A stretch of DNA of 64,000 bases from Petrosia ficiformis (taxonomy: Eukaryota > Porifera > Demospongiae > Haplosclerida > Petrosiidae), in contig OX345637.1 in NCBI GenBank assembly GCA_947044365.1, positions 15,532,916 to 15,596,915 of the forward strand, written 5' to 3'. The translations under genes were made by a program, and so were the position numbers. Shown piece after piece: positions 26,134 to 63,497 of this stretch. The stretch's first letter is position 1. The number at the start of each line of letters is the position of its first letter. The notes under the pieces were generated by a model, which saw nothing but the letters and a program-made list of their open reading frames with translations, had not been told where the DNA came from and made no database searches.

Positions 26134-29100
26134 CTAATGAGCTATAAATGATGGGGGCGGAGCAGTGATTCTTCTGCTCACTTCGGCACAGTATTTTTCG
26201 GGTATTCCAACTTGTCTTAATTCAGATAGTTTACGTTGTTTGATCCCATCAAGTTTAGCACGTCTATAATAAATGGAATTTATATATGAAAAACACATTG
26301 TAATAAATATTTACTAGATACAATAAATACATACACATGTACATATAAATACATACATTTTACATAACTTTATGTGTACACACATTACATACCACTACAT
26401 GTATATAACATACATGTACATACAAATACGTACATGTACATTAAGTTAATAACATAATATTATATGTATACATGTACATATAAAGTATTGCACATACATG
26501 TACATGTACATACATTTACATGTATGTACACATTCACATTACACAGCGCATATACATGTACATAAATGTACAGTACCTGTATATATACATACACATACAT
26601 GGGTTCGAATCCCACCTGAGGCAACTCTCATTTTTCATTTTTCCATTGTCTCAGGTGTCTGTCTTTCTTTCTTTCTTTCTTTCTTTCTTTCCTTCAGATA
26701 ACATATGTACATATAAGCTTGCTGGTAAAATTAATAGACCTTTTCCACACAAAGCAAAATATTTATGGAATGATAATTAGACTTATAATTACTATTTTAT
26801 GTCACATTCTGTTGCTTAAAAGATTCTGCAAGTTTGCTGGTGGGTGGCAAAGATATACTGTTTATTCATAATTATTAGAATACAGTGAAAATCTAGAGCC
26901 CGTGTACTGTCTAACAGTTGTTGAAGTGTAAAAATTGGTTGCATTTTGAGCGAAAACGAGGCAGTTGTAGTGAAAATGCCAGAACATACTTACCTTATTT
27001 GTGGGAACAACCCAAGTGAGGATCCTGAAGTTAGTTTTGCATCGTTTTCCAAGTGATGCTAGTAAAATATTAAAGTAGTTGTAAGTTTTATAATGTTGTA
27101 TGAACAACTGTCTTCTTCTATAAACTCTGCCATCATTCCGTTCTTGCTCAAACTACAACTAAGTTTCACAATTCAACAACAATTAGACACTACACGGGCT
27201 CTAGTTTTTCACTATATTCTAAAATAAACGGTATATCTTTGCCACTCACCAGCAAACTTCTTTCATTGACATCAATGGTTAAGAAAGCAACCGGATATTG
27301 TGTCATTACCAATCGTACTAATGAAATTCCTCAGCTCTTGCGTGCAAAAGGAGTATTAACATGGGTATGCATAGTACTTGTTCATGTGGTTCATTAAGTA
27401 TGGATCACTATATCTAGAACACAAGAGGAATTAGCGTGAGAATGAAGTAATAACTTAATATGTTATAGTTATATAATATGCACGAGGTCTATTACTGAAA
27501 TATAATCCCTAGCAACGTAAAATAGACTGGGTGTGTATTCTATAACTGCTTTATAGCCATCCACTTCGACTCAAACACTCGCCTTGCTGCTTCATCGCAA
27601 CTAACGAAGGATAATGTTGATATGTATGGCTTTTGTATAAGTTCTTCTATACATTCAAACAAGTTAGAAGCCTGTGCTGTTAAAAAAATACAGAAGTTAT
27701 GAAGCTTAGCCAGAGTGTGGGGTTTGCCTTGGACATTTCATACGCTCACCTTGGTGAACTAATGAAGATTAACACTTCAACTCTCCAGTAAAAGGAATTA
27801 GAATCTTGAATCTTGTAAAATGCAAGACTTATTGAGCTAAGAACAGTTGTTTCTGTAATGCCCCGCCGACACAATTTTCTAATTTACGCATGTGCAATCC
27901 TATTACCTTGGTTACAGCATCTTCGCATATTGGAAGTTATAAACCGGTCTATAACTTCCAATATGCGAAATATAACACATAGCAAACAACATGGTAACAG
28001 GCTATAAATTATATATAATTATCTTATCAGCTCTGTTACATTTTAGACATTCCATTTCACTTCCATTGATAATCAATTAATCAATGATGCTATACATGTA
28101 CATGTACATGTATATTGATGATTTCATATCTACATGTACATGTATATTGATGAGTTCATACGTACATGTACATGTATATTGATGACTCTACATGTACATG
28201 TACATGTATATTGATGAGTTCATACGTACACATGTACATGTACATGTATATTGATGAGTTCATACGTACATGTACATGTATATTGATGACTCTACATGTA
28301 CATGTACATGTATATTGATGAGTTCATACGTACACATGTACATGTATATTGATGACTCTACATGTACATGTACATGTATATTGATGAGTTCATACGTACA
28401 CATGTACATGTACATGTATATTGATGAGTTCATACGTACATGTACATGTATATTGATGACTCTACATGTACATGTACATGTATATTGATGAGTTCATACG
28501 TACACATGTACATGTACATGTATATTGATGATGTCATATCTACATGTACATGTATATTGATGACTCTACATGTACATGTACATGTAGTAGATGAACAAAC
28601 CTTTCTTTAGCTTCTTGATCAAGTTTAATACCTTCATCAAAGAAAGATCTTCTTGTTTTTGTCAATTCATTTTCTCTGTCTTTAATCTATTATAATTATA
28701 AATTTAATATAATTATATATAATTTATAATAATAATATAGTAACACAACATTCACACAATATGCACTCACATAACTTCACTCTTCACACGATACACGCAT
28801 CACTTCATATTTGTACAATATACACACACATTACTTCACTCTTCATATACATGTAATATATCACATCACTTCATTTATGCACTATTCACACAATTCACTC
28901 ACACATACATCATTTCATCCTCACACTCACATAATACATCATTTTCGTCTTCACACAATACATCATTTCATCTTCACACAACACTCATAAAATACAACAT
29001 TTCGTCTTCACACAATACATCATTTCATCTTCACACAATACACTCATAAATTACATAATTTCATCTTCACACAATACACTCACACAATACATCATTTCAT

Positions 29101-32100
29101 CTTCACACAAAAATCATAAAATACAACATTTCATCTTCATACAATATACTCATAAATTACATAATTTCATCTTCACACAATACATAATTTCATCTTCACA
29201 CAATACACTCATAAATTACATCATTTCATCTTCACACAATACACTCATAAAATACATCATTTCATCTTCACACAATACACTCACATAATACATCATTTCA
29301 TCTTCACACATTACATCATTTCATCTTCACACAATACACTCATACAATAAACATCACTTCACACAATACACACACATTACACTCACTTGTTTCCTGACTT
29401 CATTGACATGTGCTTTTCTTCGTAGTGCAGCATTAAGTTGATTCTGTTCATCTTGTGACATCTGATCTCGTTGCACCCTGAGGTAGAGATATAATTATTA
29501 TTATTAGTAGCTCATTATAAATACTAACTTGAGAACCCTCTCAAACTCTGTCCTTTCTCGTTGAGCCTGCACTGCAAGGAAATGTTCCTTATGTTGGACC
29601 TGATCTTCTCGTGCTTTACATAGAAGTTCTTCAGTCTCTTTTCTGCAATATTAAGAACTGTTAATAACATGTACTCTTTATTATTATTTATAACTTACTT
29701 CTTTTGTGCTTCTTCTTTCTGTTTTCTTCTCCATTCTCTTTCGAATTGTTCTTGATTTCTTTTAGCTCTGAGAGCATCCTGTAATATAATGTATATTGTA
29801 GTCCCGATAAGAAATTTTACCAATATTCCCAATAAACCAACACTGGTAATTACTTTAGATATATACCAATAACTGATACCAATATTACATGTATATCTAC
29901 CTTCTGGCTTCTGATTCCTTCATGAAAATGCTCATTTTCTCAATAATTACTAGTACATGTATCATAAAAGTGATGTTATAATCACATTATTAGCACACTT
30001 ATTACAATATTGATTACATCTTTCAGGAAAAACCAATACCAATACCAATCCAATTATTAGTGCATCTCTAATAATGTGTGACCAATACATACAAGAATAC
30101 ATGTACATACATAAATTACATGTGTATACATGTACATGTATATGTACGGGTAGCTCAGTTGGTAGAGCATCTGTCCGGAGTGCAGAGTGTCGTGGGTTCG
30201 AATCCCACCTGAGGCAACTCTCATTTTTCATTTTTCCATTGCCTCAGGTGTCTTTCTTTCTTTCTTTCTTTCTTTCATCTCAGATAACATCATGTATGTA
30301 TACACATACACACATAGAGAGACACTCAGACACACAGATACACATAGAGAGACACTCAGAGACACACAGATTCACACAGAGACAGAGACACAGACACAGT
30401 CACACATCCAGTCACACACACAGAAACACACAGAAAGAGACACACACAGATCTTATATATATATATATACATATTACATGTGTTATATCATAGACATACT
30501 CTTTCAGCTTGCTTGTCTTTAGCTTTTTCTTGTTGAGCTCTTAGACGAGCCACTTCCTTTTCTTTCTCAATTCTGAGCCTTTCTTGTTCCTTCTGTTGCT
30601 CTTCCTCTCGTTTCTGTATTAATAATGTAAGAAGAAAGAAACCATTGGAGGGAGAGACAATGGAGGAAGAGACAGTGGAAGGAGAGAAAATGGAGGGAGA
30701 GACAATGGAAGATGGAAGGAGACACAGTGGAAGGAGAGACAATGGAAGGAGAGACGATTGAAGAAGAGACAATGGAGGGAGAGGCAGTGGAAGGAGAGAC
30801 AATGGAGGGAGAGACAATGGAAGATGGAAGGAGCCACAGTGGAAGGAGAGACAATGAAAGGAGAGACAATGTAGGGAGAGACAATGAAGGGAGAGACAAA
30901 GGAAGGAGAGACAATGGAGGGAAAGACAATGGAAGGAGAGACAATGGAAGATGGAAGGAGAGACAATGGAGGGAAAGACAAAGGAAGGAGAGACAATGGA
31001 GGGAAAGACAATGGAAGACAATGGAGGGAGAGACAATGGAGGGAGAGACAAAGGAAGGAGAGACAATGGAGGGAAAGACAATGGAAGACAATGGAGGGAG
31101 AGACAATGGAGGGAAAGACAATGGAGGAGAGACAATAGAAAATGGAAGGAGAGACAATGGAGGGAAGGAAAATGGAGGAGAGACAATGGAAAATGGAAGG
31201 AGAGACAATGGAGGGAAAGAAAATGGAGGAGAGACAATGGAAAATGGAAGGAGAGACAATGGAGGGAGAGATAATGGAGGGAGAGTAGAGTTTACGAAAG
31301 AGAAGTCAAGTGATCTATTTACTTCTTTCTCTTTCAAGTAGTCTAATATTTTTAACTCTTCCAATTTCACTTGTTCTCTTTGTTGCATTTTCTGACGAGA
31401 TATCTCCTGGTAATTGAATATAATAATATAACCACTAATTAGAATATTAATTACTCACATTATTACATTGTGTAACTTCCTCCATTAAAGACTTTTGAAC
31501 TTGTCTTTTCTTTTGTAGATTATCCCAATCCTCTTGTTGTAATTTCTGCATATATCTATTTTACAGTACATGTACATACACATATGTACATGTACATGTG
31601 AATATGTACATGTACTATATTTATGCATTGTTTACATGTACATACATACACATATGTACAATGTACATGTGAATATGTACATGTACTATATTTATGCATT
31701 GTTTACATGTACATACATACACATATGTACAATGTACATGTGAATATGTACATGTACTATATTTATGCATTGTTTACATGTACATACATACACATATGTA
31801 CAATGTACATGTGAATATGTACACGTACTATATTTATGCATTATTTACATGTACATGTACATACATACACATATGTACAATGTACATGTGAATATGTACA
31901 CGTACTATATTTATGCATTATTTACATGTACATGTACATACATACACATATGTACAATGTACATGTGAATATGTACACGTACTATATTTATGCATTGTTT
32001 ACATGTACATGTACATGCCTGTATATACATGTACAGTTGTATATCATACACTGTACATCAGGTTTCATACAGGAGTTTTTGTTTAGGAGAGGAAAAAAGA

Positions 32101-48560: not shown

Positions 48561-51500
48561 ACTAAATCAAGTAGTTAATATATTATATTTGATATACTGT
48601 TCAGTTCCTTACCATATGGTGAGTATAATATATATTAATATAATCAATTATTAACTCTCAAATTAAATCCTTTATAATGATTGATAAATGATTTGTGATA
48701 TACCACATGTAGGATGAGGTTAGTATATAGTATACAAGTAATAGACATTATAATGAATATATCTCATTTACATTAACTGTACCTGAGGGCTGTAGGGTCA
48801 AGAGAAAGGTTACTGTAAATCAGATATATCCCAACTAGAGGTGTTATCAACTGAGTTGTTTATATTGAGTGGGTGTATTTGGAACAACTCTATCTAAACT
48901 AATTAGTTGCTTAAAATTCATTTGAGTTTTGCAGGTAACTATAAAACCATGGTGATACAATGAAACAGGATAATATAACTCATTAGAAGTTCTTCTGATA
49001 CACCCACTCAACATTGTACAATAGTATTGTGAATTATCATTTTATTTCCTCTTTTTCATATCTTTGTCTATATTCTAATTACGGCACATCTTTTCATTTC
49101 TTAATAACACATCATTGTGGATCCACTAGTGGGTGAGTCTAATCAAACCTAATATATACAATAGTATTTTGAATTATCATTTTATTTCCTCTTTTTCATA
49201 TCTTTGTCTATATTCTAATTACGGCACATCTTTTCATTTCTTAATAACACATCATTGTGGATCCACTAGGACGTGAGTCTAATCAAACCTAATATATACA
49301 ATAGTATTTTGAATTATCATTTTATTTCCTCTTTTTCATATCTTTCTCTATATTCTAATTACGGCACATCTTTTCATTTCTTAATAACACATCATTGTGG
49401 ATCCACTAGCTGGTGAGTCTAATCAAACCTAATATATACAATAGTATTTTGAATTATCATTTTATTTCCTCTTTTTCATATCTTTCTCTATATTCTAATT
49501 ACGGCACATCTTTTCATTTCTTAATAACACATCATTGTGGATCCACTAGCTGGTGAGTCTAATCAAACCTAATATATACAATAGTATTTTGAATTATCAT
49601 TTTATTTCCTCTTTTTCATATCTTTGTCTATATTCTAATTACGGCACATCTTTTCATTTCTTAATAACACATCATTGTGGATCCACTAGGAGGTGAGTCT
49701 AATCAAACCTAATATATACAATAGTATTTTGAATTATCATTTTATTTCCTCTTTTTCATATCTTTGTCTATATTCTAATTACGGCACATCTTTTCATTTC
49801 TTAATAACACATCATTGTGGATCCACTAGCTGGTGAGTCTAATCAAACCTAATATATACAATAGTATTTTGAATTATCATTTTATTTCCTCTTTTTCATA
49901 TCTTTGTCTATATTCTAATTACGGCACATCTTTTCATTTCTTAATAACACATCATTGTGGATCCACTAGGACGTGAGTCTAATCAAACCTAATATATACA
50001 ATAGTATTTTGAATTATCATTTTATTTCCTCTTTTTCATATCTTTCTCTATATTCTAATTACGGCACATCTTTTCATTTCTTAATAACACATCATTGTGG
50101 ATCCACTAGGTGGTGAGTCTAATCAAACCTAATATATACAATAGTATTTTGAATTATCATTTTATTTCCTCTTTTTCATATCTTTCTCTATATTCTATTT
50201 ACGGCACATCTTTTCATTTCTTAATAACACATCATTGTGGATCCACTAGCTGGTGAGTCTAATCAAACCTAATATATACAATAGTATTTTGAATTATCAT
50301 TTTATTTCCTCTTTTTCATATCTTTGTCTATATTCTAATTACGGCACATCTTTTCATTTCTTAATAACACATCATTGTGGATCCACTAGGACGTGAGTCT
50401 AATCAAACCTAATATATACAATAGTATTTTGAATTATCATTTTATTTCCTCTTTTTCATATCTTTGTCTATATTCTAATTACGGCACATCTTTTCATTTC
50501 TTAATAACACATCATTGTGAATCCACTAGTTGGTGAGTCTAATCAAACCTAATGTATACAATAGTATTTTGAATTATCATTTTATTTCCTCTTTTTCATA
50601 TCTTTGTCTATATTCTAATTACGGCACATCTTTTCATTTCTTAATAACACATCATTGTGGATCCACTAGTCGGTGAGTCTAATCAAACCTAATATATACA
50701 ATAGTATTTTGAATTATCATTTTATTTCCTCTTTTTCATATCTTTCTCTATATTCTAATTACGGCACATCTTTTCATTTCTTAATAACACATCATTGTGG
50801 ATCCACTAGCTGGTGAGTCTAATCAAACCTAATATATACAATAGTATTTTGAATTATCATTTTATTTCCTCTTTTTCATATCTTTGTCTATATTCTAATT
50901 ACGGCACATCTTTTCATTTCTTAATAACACATCATTGTGGATCCACTAGTCGGTGAGTCTAATCAAACCTAATATATACAATAGTATTTTGAATTATCAT
51001 TTTATTTCCTCTTTTTCATATCTTTGTCTATATTCTAATTACGGCACATCTTTTCATTTCTTAATAACACATCATTGCGGATCCACTAGTGGGTGAGTCT
51101 AATCAAACCTAATGTATACAATAGTATTTTGAATTATCATTTTATTTCCTCTTTTTCATATCTTTGTCTATATTCTAATTACGGCACATCTTTTCATTTC
51201 TTAATAACACATCATTGTGGATCCACTAGTCGGTGAGTCTAATCAAACCTAATATATACAATAGTATTTTGAATTATCATTTTATTTCCTCTTTTTCATA
51301 TCTTTGTCTATATTCTAATTACGGCACATCTTTTCATTTCTTAATAACACATCATTGCGGATCCACTAGTGGGTGAGTCTAATCAAACCTAATGTATACA
51401 ATAGTATTTTGAATTATCATTTTATTTCCTCTTTTTCATATCTTTGTCTATATTCTAATTACGGCACATCTTTTCATTTCTTAATAACACATCATTGTGG

Positions 51501-54500
51501 ATCCACTAGCTGGTGAGTCTAATCAAACCTAATATATACAATAGTATTTTGAATTATCATTTTATTTCCTCTTTTTCATATCTTTGTCTATATTCTAATT
51601 ACGGCACATCTTTTCATTTCTTAATAACACATCATTGTGGATCCACTAGCCGGTGAGTCTAATCAAACCTAATATATACAATAGTATTTTGAATTATCAT
51701 TTTATTTCCTCTTTTTCATATCTTTGTCTATATTCTAATTACGGCACATCTTTTCATTTCTTAATAACACATCATTGTGGATCCACTAGGAGGTGAGTCT
51801 AATCAAACCTAATATATACATGTACAATAGTATTTTGAATTATCATTTTATTTCCTCTTTTTCATATCTTTGTCTATATTCTAATTACGGCACATCTTTT
51901 CATTTCTTAATAACACATCATTGCGGATCCACTAGTGGGTGAGTCTAATCAAACCTAATGTATACAATAGTATTTTGAATTATCATTTTATTTCCTCTTT
52001 TTCATATCTTTGTCTATATTCTAATTACGGCACATCTTTTCATTTCTTAATAACACATCATTGTGGATCCACTAGCTGGTGAGTCTAATCAAACCTAATA
52101 TATACAATAGTATTTTGAATTATCATTTTATTTCCTCTTTTTCATATCTTTGTCTATATTCTAATTACGGCACATCTTTTCATTTCTTAATAACACATCA
52201 TTGTGGATCCACTAGCCGGTGAGTCTAATCAAACCTAATATATACAATAGTATTTTGAATTATCATTTTATTTCCTCTTTTTCATATCTTTGTCTATATT
52301 CTAATTACGGCACATCTTTTCATTTCTTAATAACACATCATTGTGGATCCACTAGGAGGTGAGTCTAATCAAACCTAATATATACATGTACAATAGTATT
52401 TTGAATTATCATTTTATTTCCTCTTTTTCATATCTTTGTCTATATTCTAATTACGGCACATCTTTTCATTTCTTAATAACACATCATTGTGGATCCACTA
52501 GCCGGTGAGTCTAATCAAACCTAATATATACAATAGTATTTTGAATTATCATTTTATTTCCTCTTTTTCATATCTTTGTCTATATTCTAATTACGGCACA
52601 TCTTTTCATTTCTTAATAACACATCATTGTGGATCCACTAGCCGGTGAGTCTAATCAAACCTAATATATACAATAGTATTTTGAATTATCATTTTATTTC
52701 CTCTTTTTCATATCTTTGTCTATATTCTAATTACGGCACATCTTTTCATTTCTTAATAACACATCATTGTGGATCCACTAGGTGGTGAGTCTAATCAAAC
52801 CTAATATATACAATAGTATTTTGAATTATCATTTTATTTCCTCTTTTTCATATCTTTGTCTATATTCTAATTATGGCACATCTTTTCATTTCTTAATAAC
52901 ACATCATTGTGGATCCACTAGGAGGTGAGTCTAATCAAACCTAATATATACATGTACAATAGTATTTTGAATTATCATTTTATTTCCTCTTTTTCATATC
53001 TTTGTCTATATTCTAATTACGGCACATCTTTTCATTTCTTAATAACACATCATTGTGGATCCACTAGGAGGTGAGTCTAATCAAACTAATATATACAATA
53101 GTATTTTGAATTATCATTTTATTTCCTCTTTTTCACATCTTTGTCTATATTCTAATTACGGCACATCTTTTCATTTCTTAATAACACATCATTGTGGATC
53201 CACTAGGATGTGAGTCTAATCAAACCTAATATATACAATAGTATTTTGAATTATCCTCTTTTTCATATCTTTGTCTATATTCTAATATCGACACTTCTTT
53301 TCATCTGATAATAACATATCATTTAATCTACTTCAGTATTTCCATTTTCCATTTTTATATACTTATTTTGTTTAACACAGCCTACACATAGAGCAACAGA
53401 ATATAGATGTAAGTTCTCAGTTATATCAATTGTTATTGTAATGTCATACATGTACTACTCCATTTTGCTTGTTCAAAATTAATATAATTAAAGAAACTGG
53501 AATTTTACAAAAGTATAGTAATTACTGTAAGTGTTTGATATCAGGTGTACAAGAAATCAATGAATTATTCATCTTAAACCAATATCATTATCTGACTAGT
53601 GTGTGATACCCATATTCTTTACTTGGTGTATGAAGGGTCTGGGGATAATATCTTGTTCTGTTCAAATGTTTAACTATCTTATATCAGGAGTGCATGAATT
53701 TTTTGGCGGGGTTCATGTGCTCCTGCTTATATACATAAAGGAAGTGGTTGTTGTTTGTGTTGTGTTTCAGTCTCAGTCCTCTAGTTTTCCTTTCTTCAGT
53801 AGTCTGGTATGTTTGGTAACTATTGCTACACACTTGTCAAATATCTATTATCATAATATGTTTTGAGTTCTACACAATATATAGTTACAATGTGTATTGC
53901 ACAAATCACGTACTAACCAGGTAATCAGTCATGTAGAAATCACCTCCTACACTGATAAAGTGGTGCTTGATCAGGCTCACTCAATTACTAGTTAACATGA
54001 ATACATGTATTCATGTGGTGATATGTATTTTAATTATAATTGTGTTGAGCTGAAACTGATCTCATCATGAATTCATAGTTTTAAATATAATTATACTTGT
54101 GTGTGTATTATAATCATTATAGTAATCACATATTGAGTGCATTTTAGAAAGTGAGTTTGATTTGCACAACATATTTAACCCCTACGCAGTTTGGAGTGTG
54201 TTCCTAGCATTATGAAGCACTCCAAATTGGTGTCAGGAATAGATAAGCCCATAAAAATGGGTTTAAAAGTTGATGTTTTTTCGGCTGCCCTTTGCCCTAA
54301 ACATCAAGTATGGGAAGATTATAAAGGGTTGGTGTACCCCCGTTAATGGGGTTTGGAGTGGGTCAGCCATCGCCGCCCACACAATTTGGAGATTCAGTGA
54401 CCCCACCCACCAGCACAATCTGGTGTGTAGCTGAGACATTTCCTTTGCTGTGAAACCCGATATCGCATCATAATGTAGCTTATGCCAATATGTAGTGTGG

Positions 54501-57500
54501 TAGTTTTGTTTGTCCCAGGTGCAGTCGAAAGAGGGAGAACACTACATTTGAATAGATTAAGATTATATGTATATATTTGACATAAATATACACATTTACT
54601 TTGTTATAGATTTATATTTTCATCTTCTCTCCTTATGTATCTAAATCATTCTTTAGCTTATACAAATGCTCTCAAAGAAGGAGAGTTAGATGTTGCCTAT
54701 TCTCGTATAATGTTAATTGGATCAGCTGGTGTTGGGAAGAGTAGTCTAAAACGTGGACTAATGAGCTTACCATTTGATGTTAACATCAACAGCACCATTG
54801 TTGCTGATGTTCAATCCGTACGACCCGATATTCTATCACTACAACCAAATATATCTTCAGTACAACCTGTTCTTCCTCCGTTACGACCGAATATTCCATC
54901 ATTACAGCCTGATATTTCATCAATACAACCCTTATTACGACCAGTGTGTTTGGAGTGGGCAATGCCAGGAGATGAATCTACTATAGAATGGACGGAGGTG
55001 ACCACAGAGCATGAAGTAGAGGAAATAGCTCAATTAGTTACCATTGTCCACAAGCAACAAGAGGGTCATGGTACTTCTACAGCTACTGCCAATTTTCCAC
55101 AAACCAAGCCACGTACGTCAACCCCACCAGAGTATAATACAAGAATATACCAGATAATTAAATCAGAAATTCTTACTCCTGCCTTCAACACAGCCTATGA
55201 GATGCGCCACAATGATATTGAACACGTAAAACTTCAGTCTTTCTATCATATTTGGGATTGTGGTGGTCAGCCAGTATTTCAGGAGGTATTGCCAGCATTT
55301 CTCACTTCACGTACCATGTTCCTTCTCCTCTTTGATGCCTCTATAGATTTCAATACTAGATTGAAAGCTATACAGTATCAACAAGGGCAAATGATTGAAG
55401 AAGGGGAAGTCAACATGACGACACTTGAGCTTATGGAGGGGTGGATGTCAAATATTCATGGCCATCTTGTGAAGTATGATGACAAGGGTGGTTTATTAGA
55501 GTATCCTAGAATTATTGCAGTTGGATCTCGAGGGGATAAATTGACAGAACAGGAGAAGATTGAAGTCAAGGCAAAGCTGGATAAGTGTCTAAGAGACACT
55601 TCACATGATCAGAAAGACAAACAATATCTACAAATATTAAAGGAAATTGTCATTATTGATAATACCACATCAGGAAAGGGAAGTGAAGAAGATATAGGAT
55701 ACAAGTATTTACGAAAGGAGATTTATGATTTCACAAGCAAGAAGCTCGTTGTTAGAACACCAATTAGATGGGTTCTTTTTCGTAAGGTTTTGCAATCGTT
55801 AGTGAAGAAATCAGAAAATATCATTACCATGAGGGAGGCATGTGCTATTGGTGTTGCCTGTAACATACACCCTAAAGATGTTCCCAGTGTCCTCAAGTTC
55901 TATCATGAGCTAGGTGTGGTATTATTCTACTCTCGTATCAAGGGCCTTCAAGAGAAAGTCATTCTGAATCCAAAATGGTTTGTCGAATGTCTTGGAAAGA
56001 TTCTCACACTTCCAGGTAGGGAAGGGTTTGAGAAAAGAGAGATGTGGACTCTTCTACGTCAAAAGGGCATTCTTGTACAGCCTCTGTATGTAGCTGTTTG
56101 GAAAGAATGCGAGGGGATTGATCCCGAGGATATGATCCAGCTTTTAGTAAATTTTCATTTGGCAGCTGAAGTCCAGACAGATGAGTTTGGTCAACGAAGA
56201 TCAAAACAGTTTTTCGTACCCGCAGTACTTCCAACAGGAGATCCATCATCAGCTCTGCCTTCTGGATATCAGCTTAGAGCTAGTCCACTACACATCACAT
56301 TTGGAACAGGTTATGTCATACCAGGCTTTTTTACACGTCTTGTCACCTCCATGGCTGAATCATCTCAATGCTCACTTTACTTCCGTGATGGTATTTTCCG
56401 AAACAGAGTGACATTTAAATTTGCCGATATCAATCGCGTGACTCTTACTCAGCTTTCTAACGCAATACAAGTTGATATGTTACGTTATATTCCCAATTCC
56501 CCTGCCCTAACACCTTTCCAAATAAGTTGTAAAGATTTACAGGTATCTCATTATGTATAATAATTACTTGTATTTGTATGACATACTGAATCAATAGATT
56601 TATCATTATATACATAATTAAGGTATTCTCTGATGATTCATAATTCCCATTTATTAATAAGATGAGTAATACAGTATTATTAAACTGTATATATAATCTA
56701 AGTGTGGTTTATATAATGAAATATTAATGTGTTACTTTTCATCCAGTGTCTTCTGAAGATCTGTTCTCAGAAGGTAGAAGATAGTCTACAGTCTACTAAT
56801 ATCTATACTGATGATCAACAAGTGACTGTTTCTGATATTACAAGAGAAGTCAAGTTCATATGTCAAGGGTTGGAATGTAATTCTTCTTCTGATCCTCATT
56901 ATCTACTTCCTATAGCTTCTCAAACATGTGAGATACCAGTTGAATGTGATAGAAGCAGAGTTTATAGGAAACTTACTCGTGATGAATCATACTGGTTTCC
57001 TGGAAATATTGAAGGTGAAATTAAATGCTTAAGACACTTGTATTGTAAATTACTTGTTGTTTTATTTATTATCATCAATCCCGCACTTACATAACTAAGT
57101 ACATACATCTATATACATGATGTTGATAATCTGTTCTACAAGTAGTCAAATATTATTCACATAACTCATAATTCTTTTACTAACTCTTGTTCCTTTGTTC
57201 ATGGAGATGGATTCAAGGGTTGCTGTAATTTGTTTCTCTCTGAGAACATTACAATGACATTTTGAATCCACTACTAGCAAAATTATACAAGGAAAATATA
57301 ATAGTGGCCTTTTCTTCTTGTTTGTAAAGATATGATTATTGTTTCGTTGAGAGGACTTCTGTTAGCAAAATGAATAGATAGAAACAAACGACATAATTCT
57401 ACTCAGTGTTTTGCCCACACTGGTTGGCACTTGTCAGGATTAACCACCTCTCAGATATATCAACCATCTCTCAGATAATACATATATAGGCTACTGAGAC

Positions 57501-58465
57501 AGAATTAAGTATATACTGGATAAACAGCACTAAATGTAATGTAGAATCCAACCACCACTCTAACTATCCTGAGCAGAACACTGTATAATAATATATATTT
57601 TATGTGTTCTAATTATTTCTTAATCATTGGAATAATTATGAGAGCATGTTTTATACTCAATGAAATGATTATAATATTATACTTGTAATGAAGGGTTGTA
57701 CTTTATGTTATATAATAATTAATAGTGTGTAATATATAACGAGTTGTGTGAGAAAAACACTTATAAAACCAGCTATCTATATCTCATATTCAGACACTAC
57801 AGTATCATCTCCCTTTGTTGTTAATACATCATCTCAACTAGTAGATAATACTCCAGTATCTGATATACCATCACAAACATCTACTATTAACAAAGGTAAT
57901 GAATGAAGTTCATAAAATACACAACTAACATTCTTATTGAATTGTAACTGATGATAATGATTATATATAATTCTCTCATTGTACATTTGGAATCAATTGT
58001 AATGTCAGTATAATACACATTCATGATATCACAATATTGTATATATGAGTTACATGTAATTACACTTCATATAATACTAATCCCAATATAGAATCTTTCA
58101 TCAAGACACCTGTCAAGTCTACTACACTCGCTGGACACCATACATCACAAACCACTAAGCTTTCTTCTCCATACGATATACTGAAGAAGCACACACCAGA
58201 GTTATTAGGTGCATTACCTGGACCTGATAAACTAGCTAATGATCTCTCATCAGTTGATCTAGTATCAGATCATGTTAAAGATGATGTATTGACAACTTTA
58301 GGAATCCCTCGTTATGTGAAATGTAGCAAGCTATTAAACGAAATTCAAAGATCTCTCCGAGCCTTCAATGAAGAAGAAAGATTAAAATTATTTTGTGATG
58401 TATTGAAACAACAAAATGACTGGACACTATCAAAAATATCTGATAACATGTTGAAAGAGTTATAA
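48561..58465 (+). CDS. Roco-type GTPase with microexon-array N terminus and CARD-like C terminus
   Basis: Predicted Roc-COR GTPase with a death-fold tail. Exons: 48561-48618 (ATG 48616-48618 directly before GTGAGT), 48713-48718, thirty 3-nt microexons at 49130-53209, 53381-53408, 54657-56542, 56747-57014, 57794-57895, 58092-58465. Joined, the frame closes at 919 codons. The Roc domain starts at ALKEGELDVAYSRIMLIG, with P-loop GSAGVGKSS (about residues 64-72), switch II WDCGGQ and a base-recognition-like GSRGDK. COR follows from about PIRWVLFRKVL, including PKWFVECLGK. After a Ser/Thr-rich linker the last exon has a helical CARD-like domain (LLGALPGPDKLANDL ... LFCDVLKQQNDW). No leucine-rich repeats are seen. 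An internal 7-residue repeat interrupts the Roc domain. Microexon inclusion is inferred; an alternative start is ATG 54635, inside the last large intron. Confidence 0.78.
49012..53330 (+). repeat. 140-bp tandem array of 30 one-codon microexon units
   Basis: Thirty units repeat every 140 bp, or 146 where ATGTAC-type bases are inserted, with partial units at both edges. Each reads GTGAGTCTAATCAAACC ... a long T-rich tract, TATTCTAATTAC (branch-point-like), TCTTTTCATTTCTTAATAAC ... GGATCCACTAG, then three variable bases, then GTGAGT. Triplets start at 49130 + 140n for units 1-20, then 51936, 52076, 52216, 52356, 52502, 52642, 52782, 52922, 53068 and 53207. Codons by unit: TGG 1,15,17,21; GAC 2,7,10; CTG 3,4,6,9,13,18,22; GAG 5,20,24,28,29; GTG 8,27; TTG 11; TCG 12,14,16; CCG 19,23,25,26; GAT 30. 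The rest of the unit is almost invariant. Each intron would be about 137 nt. Confidence 0.93.
53381..53408 (+). other. 28-nt exon after the microexon array
   Basis: Preceded by TTTAACACAG and followed by GTAAGTTC, both strong splice sites. In phase 0 it encodes PTHRATEYR plus one base. That base joins the exon at 54657 to give the codon before YTNALKEGE. Other phases hit stops or the wrong Roc frame, so this exon supports the phase-0 reading of the array. Confidence 0.75.
53409..54656. other. Large Roco intron
   Basis: No gene seen. About 54180-54480 is less AT-rich and has repeated TTTGGAGTG and CACAATTTGGAG phrases, probably a repeat fragment. The 3' end has a strong pyrimidine tract ending TTCTTTAG at 54656. 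Confidence 0.6.
54793..54948 (+). repeat. Coding 7-residue repeat inside the Roc domain
   Basis: Between the P-loop and switch II the protein has about seven imperfect copies of a 7-residue motif, variants of LQPNISS (VRPDILS, LQPNISS, VQPVLPP, LRPNIPS, LQPDISS, IQPLLRP). The underlying 21-bp repeat is visible as CAACC/CGACC every 21 bases. This region is variable in length in Roc domains, so the repeat probably forms a disordered Pro-rich loop. Confidence 0.85.
57015..57793. other. Roco intron
   Basis: No gene or clear repeat seen; AT-rich intron between the exons ending 57014 and starting 57794. Confidence 0.6.
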
Positions 58466-59339: not shown

Positions 59340-62300
59340 TTAATAGTAAGTCTCTCTCTCAACCCAACCTAAAGAGTAATATTATAATAATAATTAAATA
59401 ATAATATTACAGGATACATACCTCCTGGTCTCCTTCGTATGATAAGTTTTCTTATCTCATCGTACACAAAGATAAGAATAGAGAAACTTATGGGTGTACA
59501 CCACCATTCTAATCTTAATCCATGCATACGTAATGCTGTATCTAACCATGGACAGTAAGCTAGGAATACAGCTAGAGCTGTCTCAAATATTAGACCAAAT
59601 ATAAGATAATAGTTCCTAATAAATAAATAAATACATGTATAGATAATATAATGACTATATGAATGATGAATGGTGGATGGATGAATAGATGGATGCATGG
59701 ATGAATAGATGGATGGATGATACATGATGGACGGATAGATAAATGTATGATAAATGAATGACTGGATGTATGATGGGTGATGATGAATGGATGGTTCCTA
59801 ATGATTAAAGAAATATACATTATAGAATGATAAATGAATGGTGAGGCTAAATTTAAGTACATGAATGAATGGATACAATATCCATGATCCATCCATTCAT
59901 CCATCTGTCTTTTATTCATCCGTCCTCCATCCATTCATCCATTCATCCATCCATCCATCCATCCATCCATCCATCCTCCGACCATTCAATCCATTCATCC
60001 ATTCATTCATTAATCCATCCATCCCTTCATCCATCCATTCATCTATCCATCCATATATACAGAGATTACAGACAACTGGAAGTATATATAATTATGATTA
60101 TGATTAATGAATAAATATTCAATCATACTTGAATCCCTGTCTAAATAGAGAGTTCAGTCGTGTTTTACATATTATCAGATCAGCCCACTGTACTACAACA
60201 ATACTGATAAAGAATCCAGTGTGACATGTAAACTCCAGTGTTTTACGATTATCATAATTCTGTATATATACACATGTATAATGAATGGATGGATGATGGA
60301 TTAATGGATCATTAAAATTAATGGATAAATGGAGGGTGCATGAATGGGCCAGTGAGCAGATATATGATGGGATGAATGTACAGTACATACCAGCACATGT
60401 ATGTACATGTATCTATCTACATGTAAGCACATGTACAAATAGAAAGTATGTATATAATAAAACACAAGGAATAATTATTACATTACATGTACATGTATGT
60501 GAGGTACGTGATATATACATATATCTCATAATGAGATTCATAGCCCATACATTTCTATGGGGCGTGTAAGTTTATATTTCTCATATAAACCTCAAAATAG
60601 GTTGATATTTTAAAATATCAACCTTGTGAAACTCGATGGCGATTTCTTACGGACTCAATGACAATCTCTTGCAGGACAATCCAAGGTATGAATCTCATTC
60701 TAAAATATATCAGATATAACATGTTTCATCTGTCTATATGCGTTATATAAACCTGCCAACTCGGATGATATCACCCTCGGGCTACGCCCTCGGGTGATAT
60801 CTTACCTCGTGGTAGGTTTATATAACGCATATAGACCTCTGAAACATGATATATATAACACATAAATTATATACATGTATGTGAGGTGATATAATACATG
60901 TATACATGTATGTGAGGTGATATATACATGTATACATGTATGTGAGGTGATATATACATGTATACATGTATGTGAGGTGATATATACATATATACATGTA
61001 TGTGAGGTGATATATACATGTACACATGTATGTGAGGTGATATATACATATATACATGTATGTGAGGTGATATAATACATGTATACATGTATGTGAAGTG
61101 ATATATACATGTACATGTATACATGTATGTGAGGTGATATATACATGTACATGTATACATGTATGTCAAGTGATATATACATGTATACATGTATGTGAGG
61201 TGATATAATACATGTATACATGTATGTGAAGTGATATATACATGTACATGTATACATGTATGTGAAGTGATATATACATATATACATGTATGTGAAGTGA
61301 TATATACATGTATATATGTATGTGAGGTGATATATACATATATACATGTATGTGAGGTGATATAATACATGTATACATGTATATGAAGTGATATATACAT
61401 GTACATGTATACATGTATGTGAGGTGATATATACATATATACATGTACATGTATGTGAAGTGATATAATACATGTATACATGTATATGAAGTGATATATA
61501 CATGTATACATGTATATGAAGTGATATATACATGTACATATATACATGTATGTGAAGTGATATATACATATATGTGAAGTGATATATACATGTATACATG
61601 TATGTGAGGTGATATATACATGTATATGTATGTGAGGTGATATATACATATATACATGTATGTGAGGTGATATATACATGTACATGTATACATGTATGTG
61701 AAGTGATATATACATGTATACATGTATGTGAGGTGATATATACATGTATATATGTATGTGAGGTGATATATACATATATACATGCATGTGAGGTGATATA
61801 ATACATGTATACATGTATGTGAGGTGATATATACATATATACATGTATGCGAGGTGATATATACATATATACATGTATGTGAGGTGATATAATACATGTA
61901 TATATGTATGTAAGGTGATATATACATGTATATATGTATGTGAGGTGATATATACATGTATATATGTATGTGAGGTGATATAATACATGTATACATGTAT
62001 GTGAAGTGATATATACATGTATACATGTATGTGAAGTGATATAATACATTTATACATGTATGTGAGGTGATATATACATGTATACATGTATGTGAGGTGA
62101 TATATACATATATACATGTATGTGAGGTGATATAATACATGTATACATGTATGTGAAGTGATATATACATGTACATGTATACATGTACATGTATACATGT
62201 ATGTGAGGTGATATATACATGTACATGTATACATGTATGTCAAGTGATATATACATGTATACATGTATGTGAGGTGATATAATACATGTATACATGTATG

Positions 62301-63497
62301 TGAAGTGATATATACATATATCAGTATACATGTATGTGAACTGATATATACATATATACATGTATGTGAAGTGATATATACATATATACATGTATGTGAA
62401 GTGATATATACATGTATACATGTATGTGAGGTGATATATACATGTATATATGTATGTGAGGTGATATATACATATATACATGTATGTGAAGTGATATATA
62501 CATGTACATGTATACATGTATGTGAAGTGATATATACATGTATACATGTATGTGAGGTGATATAATACATGTATACATGTATGTGAAGTGATATATACAT
62601 GTACATGTATATATGTATGTGAGGTGATATATACATATATACATGTATGTGAGGTGATATATACATGTACATGTATACATGTATGTGAAGTGATATATAC
62701 ATGTATACATGTATGTGAGGTGATATAATACATGTATACATGTATGTGAAGTGATATATACATGTACATGTATACATGTATGTGAAGTGATATATACATA
62801 TATACATGTATGTGAAGTGATATATACATGTATACATGTATGTGAGGTGATATATACATGTATATATGTATGTGAGGTGATATATACATATATACATGTA
62901 TGTGAGGTGATATAATACATGTATACATGTATATGAAGTGATATATACATGTACATGTATACATGTATGTGAGGTGATATATACATATATACATGTGCAT
63001 GTATGTGAAGTGATATAATACATGTATACATGTATATGAAGTGATATATACATGTATACATGTATATGAAGTGATACATGTATATACATGTACATATATA
63101 CATGTATGTGAAGTGATATATACATGTACATGTACACATGTATGTGAGGTGATATATACATATATACATGTACATGTATGTGAGGCGATATATACATATA
63201 TACATGTATGTGAGGTGATATATACATATACATGTACATTGTATTATGACGTATAAGAAAGTTAAATGAGGAATCAAGCTACTTCTAACTCTCTCAACAT
63301 GTTATAATAATACTCATCAACTCACCCATTCTTGTCCAAAGCTATCTGTTACATAACCATTTTTATTATCCCAGTCTTTCCTCAGTCCCAGGAGTGTCCA
63401 AGGCAGAAACCCATTCTCACCCATTATCACAAAGTATGTAAAGAACCCAGCCATTGCCTGTATGATACCAATCTGACCATATGTCATACTAATTAAC
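59340..63497 (-). CDS. ATP1A: Na+/K+-ATPase alpha subunit, last four exons in window
   Basis: C-terminal part of the P-type sodium pump catalytic subunit, which exports 3 Na+ and imports 2 K+ at the plasma membrane. Exons in transcript order: 63326-63497, 60129-60259, 59422-59615, 59340-59368. Junction phases agree and the frame ends in TAA. This covers roughly transmembrane helices M7 to M10: [20 protein letters not shown], the extracellular SFGQ (family SYGQ, which contacts the beta subunit), [20 protein letters not shown], the [13 protein letters not shown] segment and [20 protein letters not shown]. It keeps the C-terminal Tyr-Tyr that is important for sodium binding in animal pumps. The 29-nt terminal exon encodes only GWVERETYY. 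The upstream exons with the phosphorylation site lie beyond the window. A satellite array fills the intron between the first two exons. Confidence 0.93.
59640..60060. repeat. GATG / CATC tetranucleotide-type repeats, inverted
   Basis: TGGATGGATGAATAGATGGA-like repeats (about 59665-59790) are followed by the complementary CATCCATCCATTCATCC block (about 59885-60055), so the intron can form a long imperfect hairpin. ATP1A intron. Confidence 0.85.
60600..60623. repeat. Perfect 24-bp palindrome
   Basis: GGTTGATATTTT followed by its exact complement AAAATATCAACC. Lies in the ATP1A intron. Confidence 0.8.
60719..60849. repeat. Fold-back element
   Basis: Imperfect arms ATGTTTCA...TATATGCGTTATATAAACC and the complementary GGTTTATATAACGCATATA...TGAAACAT surround a second palindrome, GATATCACCCTCGGGC / GCCCTCGGGTGATATC. 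Lies next to the satellite in the ATP1A intron. Confidence 0.8.
60870..63235. repeat. About 2.4-kb satellite, TACATGTATGTGAGGTGATATA unit
   Basis: More than 75 copies of a 28-36-bp unit built from a constant TATGTGAGGTGATATA or TATGTGAAGTGATATA core and a variable number of TACATG/TATACATG steps. It gives long spurious frames (repeats of ITSHTC on the minus strand). Lies wholly inside an ATP1A intron of 3.07 kb. Confidence 0.92.

Follow-up and report, generated by a model that had tools for sequence, protein, structure and literature searches.

A tandem array of predicted one-codon microexons at the start of a Roco GTPase gene of the sponge Petrosia ficiformis, one of many such arrays in the genome

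The window analyzed here is a 64,000-nucleotide stretch of chromosome 2 of the haplosclerid demosponge Petrosia ficiformis (C2:15532916-15596915), and its subject is a tandem array of 30 units, each bearing a putative exon of a single codon, within the 5' part of a predicted Roco GTPase gene. The array lies on the forward strand at 49017-53323 and was delimited by Tandem Repeats Finder, pattern matching, intron lengths and a gap test with profile hidden Markov models (HMMs). Tandem Repeats Finder reported a period of 140, 30.7 copies, 96% matches and a score of 7899. Pattern matching identified exactly 30 CACTAG|NNN|GTGAGT sites in this span, the first triplet beginning at 49130 and the last occupying 53207-53209. 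A preliminary description of this DNA had reported 30 near-identical units of about 140 bp, each with CACTAG, three variable bases and GTGAGT, and no stop codon among the triplets; both statements were borne out, with stops in 0 of the 30. The intron length of 137 nt that it gave applies to 25 of the 29 introns between triplets, but three are 143 nt and one is 136 nt long. The branch-point-like motif, which it gave as TTCTAAT, is ambiguous: CTAAT, TTCAT and TTAAT lie 51, 33 and 25 nt before the intron end. One unit of the array reads TTCTATTT where the others read TTCTAATT.

The predicted microexons, all placed on the forward strand by pattern match, begin with TGG (W, 49130-49132), GAC (D, 49270-49272), CTG (L, 49410-49412), CTG (L, 49550-49552), GAG (E, 49690-49692), CTG (L, 49830-49832), GAC (D, 49970-49972), GTG (V, 50110-50112), CTG (L, 50250-50252) and GAC (D, 50390-50392). 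Microexons 11 to 20 are predicted to be TTG (L, 50530-50532), TCG (S, 50670-50672), CTG (L, 50810-50812), TCG (S, 50950-50952), TGG (W, 51090-51092), TCG (S, 51230-51232), TGG (W, 51370-51372), CTG (L, 51510-51512), CCG (P, 51650-51652) and GAG (E, 51790-51792). The last 10 predicted microexons are TGG (W, 51936-51938), CTG (L, 52076-52078), CCG (P, 52216-52218), GAG (E, 52356-52358), CCG (P, 52502-52504), CCG (P, 52642-52644), GTG (V, 52782-52784), GAG (E, 52922-52924), GAG (E, 53068-53070) and GAT (D, 53207-53209).

The remainder of the host gene, also on the forward strand, was predicted from sequence and exon joining. Predicted exon 1 (48561-48618) ends in the start codon ATG (48616-48618), which is followed by GTGAGT, and is 97.1 to 98.6% identical in six paralogues. 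A predicted 6-nt exon, GATGAG (Asp-Glu, 48713-48718), comes next, and the 35 to 40 nt around it show 88.6 to 100% identity in six paralogues. On the 3' side of the array, a predicted 28-nt exon (53381-53408) encodes PTHRATEYR plus one base, and its 75-nt region is 84 to 88% identical in six paralogues. The predicted main exon (54657-56542) contains, by Pfam, the Roc GTPase domain with the P-loop GSAGVGKS and the COR-A domain, and is followed by predicted exons at 56747-57014 and 57794-57895 and by the predicted last coding exon at 58092-58465, with the stop codon TAA. As the preliminary description had claimed for a coding sequence of 919 codons, the predicted exons share one frame: the ATG, GATGAG, the 30 triplets, the 28-nt exon, the Roc exon and the three later exons join into 2757 nt, or 918 residues plus a stop. 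The predicted protein begins MDEWDLLELD and matches Pfam Roc at E=1.5e-10, with 41.8 bits against a cut-off of 27, and COR-A at E=6.5e-16, with 59 bits against a cut-off of 35.3. With a Roc GTPase domain followed by COR, the host gene conforms to the definition of the Roco family. In the predicted transcript the triplet string leads into CCTACACATAGAG, and a junction that skips the array would lead into CCTACAC.

Among 5.8 billion predicted proteins, 616 homologues of the 918-residue product were found. Those listed (120 of the 616) resemble single-exon open reading frame calls, and some extend into intron-like sequence. The Roc exon itself contains a 21-bp coding repeat of the SLQP type at window positions 54828-54930; much longer, proline-rich SLQP-type versions (IPLQPAVSSLPPH...) occur in the homologues P0006, P0007, P0008 and P0018, forming a second variable-length repeat in the same proteins.

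The unit design was then sought throughout the genome, comprising 29 contigs and 191,215,263 bases. The published assembly of this species, odPetFici3.1, spans 191.25 Mb in 35 scaffolds, was built with PacBio HiFi libraries and has a primary-assembly QV of 62.8 (PMC12648040). The pattern CACTAGNNNGTGAGT matched 337 + 89 = 426 times, compared with 15 + 7 = 22 matches for its reversed control. A paired-unit pattern required two neighboring 3-nt units, of which the first had to carry a CTAG acceptor, in two spacer classes; it matched 353 times with spacers of 72 to 102 and 690 times with spacers of 103 to 133, while each reversed control matched 11 times. When the gap was set to 4 nt, in the 72-to-102 spacer class only, there was a single match, a simple repeat, compared with 92 for the reversed control. 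A chance origin of the window pattern was rated low, the real patterns far outnumbering the reversed controls genome-wide.

Twenty-two arrays were read, some in part: eight on chromosome 2 at 15.58-15.80 Mb and the others on C1, C3, C4, C6, C16 and C17. Intron sequence and length differ between arrays. Common unit sizes run between about 81 bp, in the 50-unit array at C3:0.746 Mb, and about 161 bp, at C1:35.3 Mb; 67 units were counted in the array at C6:1.90 Mb. Introns measure 70 to 164 nt in 17 arrays, and units of about 81 to 142 bp were found in four arrays read later. The window array is thus one instance of a genome-wide design, and more arrays exist beyond these 22. Recurrence of the design in arrays whose units are dissimilar makes an assembly artefact seem unlikely. 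A further cluster of paired 3-nt units, in several blocks and mostly about 119 bp apart, lies at C2:11471386-11515337. At C1:40309190 and C2:10293707 there are 56-57-bp repeats with CTAG|TGG|GTAAGT in which all listed triplets are TGG, in contrast to the variable arrays.

The gap between acceptor and donor is narrowly fixed at three bases. With the strict flanks CACTAG and GTGAGT, a 3-nt gap was found 284 times in loci L009-L037 and the window, and gaps of 1, 2 or 4 to 12 nt 0 times; with the looser flanks yAG and GTRAGT, 510 gaps were of 3 nt, and each other size occurred 3 to 18 times. Intron profile HMMs of 17 arrays gave 3 nt for 422 of 422 scored gaps between pairs with complete intron ends, a test that is not fully independent because the models were trained on motif-cut introns. 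When the first and last 12 intron bases were removed in all 22 arrays and only intron interiors were used, yAG|NNN|GTRAG[TCA] was recovered between 604 of 645 neighboring interiors; in the window, the full junction was present in 30 of 30. Among 31 listed exceptions, 18 still show AG and GT three bases apart but have a different donor or an AAG acceptor, such as TCG|GTAGGT in the C1:13.1-Mb array. Six matches with gaps other than 3 nt in looser scans (5 + 1) all map to the margins of arrays or beyond them. A 6-nt AAGAAA that could be a real small exon heads the array at C6:1.90 Mb. At C1:35.3 Mb (L013, L015 and L016), three listed junctions have the sequence CACTAGATAGACTTGAG, in which the acceptor is not followed by a GT donor; this recurrent unit has seemingly lost its exon.

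The triplets were next considered as codons. The counts of 491 and 624 triplets cover sites of exactly 3 nt that have yAG before them and GTRAG[TCA] after them and lie within 320 nt of a neighbor; units with other donors (for example, the TCG|GTAGGT units of the C1:13.1-Mb array) and arrays outside the 22 (for example, those at C2:11.47-11.52 Mb and the two-unit array at C1:17.79 Mb, L012) fall outside these counts. Tests of stops and of triplet composition used the 22 arrays, and the third-base test used 17, with the five later arrays outside it. None of the 624 triplets is TAA, TAG or TGA, compared with 39.2 expected from within-array column composition. When only the distinct triplets of each array were counted (178), there were again 0 stops, the shuffled mean was 10.6, and zero was reached in 0 of 2000 shuffles.

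The third base also carries a coding-like signature. G is the base preferred before GT; Asp, Phe and Asn have no codon ending in G, and Glu has none ending in T. In seven C2-cluster arrays, every one of the 45 triplets from four-fold boxes ends in G, while 45 of the 125 from split boxes do not, and 42 of these 45 encode Asp, Phe or Asn. Put in terms of residues, an NNG codon is used for 125 of the 128 amino acids that have one. The Fisher p for the third-base test in these arrays is 8e-8 over all units and 0.0019 over distinct triplets. In the C2 cluster, the third base clearly follows what the encoded amino acid would need. The arrays at C6:1.9 Mb use T as the default third base; their split-box exceptions are 12 GAG, with two four-fold exceptions, which leaves a weak contrast (p of 0.042 over all units and of 1 over distinct triplets). 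The C1:35.3-Mb arrays have AGA as a third-base exception.

Triplets that would interfere with splicing are missing. CAG and AAG together occur 0 times among the 624, compared with 21.8 expected, and 0 times among distinct triplets, compared with 8.6 expected, a result reached in none of 3000 shuffles; either triplet would form an acceptor flush with the donor. GAG, a poor acceptor, is the commonest triplet (67 versus 34.9 expected). GTA, GTT and GTC, which would be potential donors at the acceptor, occur 0 times versus 23.0 expected, and AGG is never used. In two arrays whose introns are 28% different (C1:10.87 Mb and C17), the splice sites are near-constant, and the interior-only check of these arrays recovered the full motif in 22 of 27 cases at C1:10.87 Mb and 24 of 31 at C17. 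Branch-point-like motifs were found in 15 of 17 consensus introns.

The triplets are hypervariable, and the introns are nearly uniform. Pairs of window units differ in 68%, 75% and 25% of cases at triplet positions 1, 2 and 3, respectively, compared with 0.7% per site in the introns, and 0 of 137 intron columns are as variable as the triplet mean. In the window, 74 unit pairs are identical over 100 nt on each side; 58 of these differ in the triplet, and 12 differ at all three bases. Across the seven C2-cluster arrays, 299 of 489 flank-identical pairs differ in the triplet, 296 nonsynonymously and 3 synonymously. Copying with even mutation would not yield such a contrast. Either strong selection on the codons, with the introns homogenized, or mutation aimed at the triplets would be required, and of these we favor selection.

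The arrays also bear marks of growth. Blocks of units have been copied whole, as in the repeated S-D-E-W-E of one paralogue, and two arrays share DNWWDLSDE[W/L]ESDE[W/L]ESD in order. The predicted peptides are built from limited sets of residues, those of the C2 cluster being acidic and aromatic and those at C3:0.93 Mb rich in Glu and Arg; Lys accounts for 2 and Gln for 1 of the 624 triplets. Consensus introns are partly similar across gene families (C17 versus the window, 72.7% over 139 nt; C1:13.1 Mb versus the window, 78.8% over 52 nt), hinting at a shared origin or at the transfer of cassettes between genes.

Twelve of the 22 arrays lie upstream of a Roc-type exon. At C6:7.69 Mb, the first unit is ATG, and phase 0 can be kept from the array to Roc by way of a 79-nt exon. 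The array at C1:13.10 Mb has a different setting, its exons having been placed by eye: three upstream exons (366 nt, MADDAIRK...) end in phase 0, and on the 3' side a 64-nt exon, open only in phase 0, is followed by a ZU5-like exon. The same gene contains a Death domain (Pfam E=1.2e-5, above the cut-off). Searches of Pfam and of PDB sequences with the sponge segments did not name the ZU5-like domain. Its name comes from relatives: the ZU5-like exon has 26 among the 5.8 billion predicted proteins, of which 3 match Pfam ZU5 (best E=5.4e-4), and the predicted model of one relative, P0121 (mean predicted local distance difference test score, 81), matches ankyrin ZU5 chains at E=1.6e-5, with the GAIN domains of adhesion G protein-coupled receptors next. 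The exons after the C16 and C6:1.90-Mb arrays align to the ZU5-like exon at 37% and 22% identity, respectively, the C6:1.90 link being weak. On C16, the reverse strand of L035 (3547-3759) contains an open reading frame with a long polyglutamine run.

Collectively, these data suggest that the 30 triplets of the window are one-codon coding exons, spliced into the start of the Roco GTPase message so that each adds one residue to a hypervariable N-terminal peptide, a reading to which we assign a probability of about 0.86. The earlier proposal that the triplets are 3-nt, phase-0 coding exons is supported at the sequence level by gap size, the absence of stops, the junctions, phase, the third base and the missing acceptor triplets. 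In the best reading of the arrays as a group, one-codon microexons would diversify a terminal or linker peptide, their inclusion in RNA being a prediction, and the arrays are likely a way to diversify immune-type proteins residue by residue.

Under this reading, the introns, mostly about 80 to 160 nt long, would be recognized by intron definition and removed one by one, because two splicing complexes could not fit on a 3-nt exon simultaneously. The units would multiply by tandem and block duplication, which would keep the introns alike, while selection on the amino acids would keep the codons different. Variable inclusion of units could then yield many isoforms per gene; such variation is predicted to be likely because any skip keeps the frame and the splice sites of an array are alike. 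Duplication, together with exchange between introns of near-identical sequence, would reshuffle the codons as generations pass. The resulting peptide may serve as a variable bait or recognition segment on immune-type signaling proteins, a role suggested by the domains of the identified hosts, which are Roc-COR in some and a ZU5-like domain with a Death domain in another. The broader proposal, that dozens of sponge immune-type genes carry 13 to 67 interchangeable one-codon exons and that subset splicing and unequal intron exchange make these a genome-wide generator of diversity at the level of codons, stands in our estimate at an even chance.

The strongest alternative accepts the exons but not their variable use: all one-codon exons would always be included in order, so that each gene makes one fixed peptide and diversity exists only between paralogues or alleles. 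The 30 window units all have equally strong-looking splice sites, as this would predict, and paralogues that share peptide order suggest either that order matters or that the copies are recent. Yet perfect inclusion of 13 to 67 consecutive 3-nt exons would probably need unusual fidelity, because the donors and acceptors of an array are equivalent and any skip keeps the frame. We give a fixed peptide somewhat less than an even chance.

Three further alternatives deny that the triplets arose or act as separate coding exons. Recursive removal of one long intron, in which the triplets would be spliced out again and never translated, draws on the resemblance of the units to ratchet points, where an acceptor is juxtaposed with a donor (PMC8605326). 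The acceptors and donors of the arrays are instead separated by three bases, and a noncoding waypoint has no reason to avoid stops, keep to a multiple of three or choose its third base by amino acid, so that we consider this quite improbable. It is very unlikely that introners were inserted between all codons of an older exon, leaving the triplets as remnants of one coding sequence: similarity can be detected between the consensus introns of several arrays that belong to different genes, but insertion between every codon, dozens of times, is implausible, several-unit blocks including their triplets have been duplicated, showing growth by tandem duplication, and the C2-cluster codons end in G wherever possible (125 of 128), probably unlike the ordinary exons of an AT-rich genome. 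An ordinary intronic minisatellite whose unit happens to carry splice-like words at its ends is scarcely credible, for although the window array is a clean tandem repeat and the two 56-57-bp repeats described above show that such words occur in plain satellites, triplet bases should then vary like the rest of the unit and in the window vary about 100 times more, and the 3-nt spacing recurs with dissimilar units and in frame. A plain minisatellite was accordingly rejected on triplet diversity far above intron diversity, the absence of stops and the retention of the junction in 604 of 645 cases.

Several observations weigh against reading the triplets as one-codon exons. The reading is drawn from DNA sequence, and it asks splicing to remove dozens of introns in tandem, which is unusual. 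The depletion of stops is mostly that of TAG, whose absence has two readings because TAG is both a stop and an acceptor; TAA and TGA alone number 0 versus 2.2 expected on distinct triplets, a result reached in 241 of 3000 shuffles and not significant. The third-base test was uninformative at C1:10.87, C6:7.69 and C16, nonsignificant at C17 and mixed at C1:13.1 (p=0.0036) and C1:35.3 (p=0.0011), where the values are for all units and neither is significant on distinct triplets; its p-values overstate independence because the units are copies of each other. The depletion of CAG, AAG and GTN was spotted only after counting. GGG (2 versus 19.5 expected), GCG (1 versus 15.6) and CAA (1 versus 12.6) are depleted as well, although they pose no splice problem, and the depletion of CAG, AAG and GTN may in part reflect avoidance of the amino acids Gln, Val, Ala and Gly. 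Part of the constancy of splice sites follows from the choice of units by their motif, and a yTnAy branch-like motif is absent from 2 of the 17 consensus introns.

The same side of the balance holds the 41 of 645 interior pairs (22 arrays) that lack the junction motif; 13 of the 31 listed have no intact AG|NNN|GT (five at C1:35.3 Mb, three at C6:1.93 Mb and five at C17). In the C17 array (L034, 3600-5000; C17:2.366 Mb), downstream units have lost donors or acceptors and there is an inverted stretch, a decay-like picture; because of this downstream decay, not every array need be functional. No array-like N-terminal peptide was seen by eye among the matches listed (120 of the 616 Roco homologues), and an array-like start was found in 0 of 8 inspected of the 26 ZU5-like homologues, which have a single-exon open reading frame appearance. 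Because they look like single-exon open reading frames, the N-termini of the Roco and ZU5-like homologues say nothing for or against splicing.

Some functional analogies to the proposed one-codon exons can be drawn. Fungal NLR-type incompatibility proteins contain high-identity repeats with hypervariable codons, and NLRP1 and CARD8 carry fast-evolving bait tails beside ZU5/FIIND and death-fold domains. The likeness, a constant scaffold with few diversifying codons in the former and a variable tail in the latter, is one of function, with no claim of homology. The constant part of the fungal repeats is protein, whereas that of the arrays is intron, and the variable codon alone would appear in the product. 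In Dscam, the alternative exons are full-size and mutually exclusive. Dscam-type arrays resemble those described here in their tandem exons and combinatorial protein diversity (PMC1397879). The exons here differ in being of 3 nt and in keeping the frame in any subset, and it is the intron that repeats as the constant element.

The micro-exon genes of schistosomes contain many tiny exons of 3 to 81 bp and long introns of up to 5 kb, and encode secreted products (PMC10526429). They are alike in having many tiny exons and in protein variation by duplication and alternative splicing (PMC10526429). Their exon sizes vary, whereas each exon in Petrosia would be one codon, between near-identical short introns (136 to 143 nt in the window and 70 to 164 nt in 17 arrays, in place of long ones) and in Roc or ZU5-like genes. 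Exons of 1 to 6 nt can be spliced, as with a 1-nt exon of Arabidopsis APC11 and 3-nt alternative exons (PMC4674806). In the part of that report cited here, such very small exons are isolated, without arrays, and not hypervariable (PMC4674806). In the passages cited, neither this source nor PMC10526429 presents its exons as single codons in tandem array. Recursive splicing ratchet points share the adjoining acceptor and donor and the stepwise removal (PMC8605326), but, as that source's excerpt presents them, they are of zero length and in long introns, whereas three coding-like bases lie between the two sites here. Searches for microexon arrays and for microexons in sponges, made in open-licence PubMed Central, turned up no described case.

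If confirmed in RNA, the arrays would mean that the spliceosome handles dozens of consecutive 3-nt exons, contrary to the view of tiny exons as poorly recognized. They would constitute a new protein-diversifying architecture, in which the repeat is removed and one hypervariable codon per repeat is kept, and the introns would be a device to evolve a recognition peptide one residue at a time. To our knowledge, sponges are animals without adaptive immunity, and the placement of the arrays beside Roc-COR, ZU5-like and Death domains would then point to a way in which sponges could build large repertoires of recognition. The arrays also suggest that standard annotation misses the start of the genes that bear them, because ordinary aligners have difficulty in detecting 3-nt exons. 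Published RNA reads exist for the same specimen (ERR10378034; PMC12648040), and they make the reading of the triplets as one-codon exons testable at once.

Other repeats of the window are of a different kind. Tandem Repeats Finder detected a tandem array of about 76 copies of a 30-bp unit at 60870-63236 (score 2844), which contains many ATACATGTAT-like words, and more minisatellite-like arrays with nested periods at 28094-29370 and 30646-31285.

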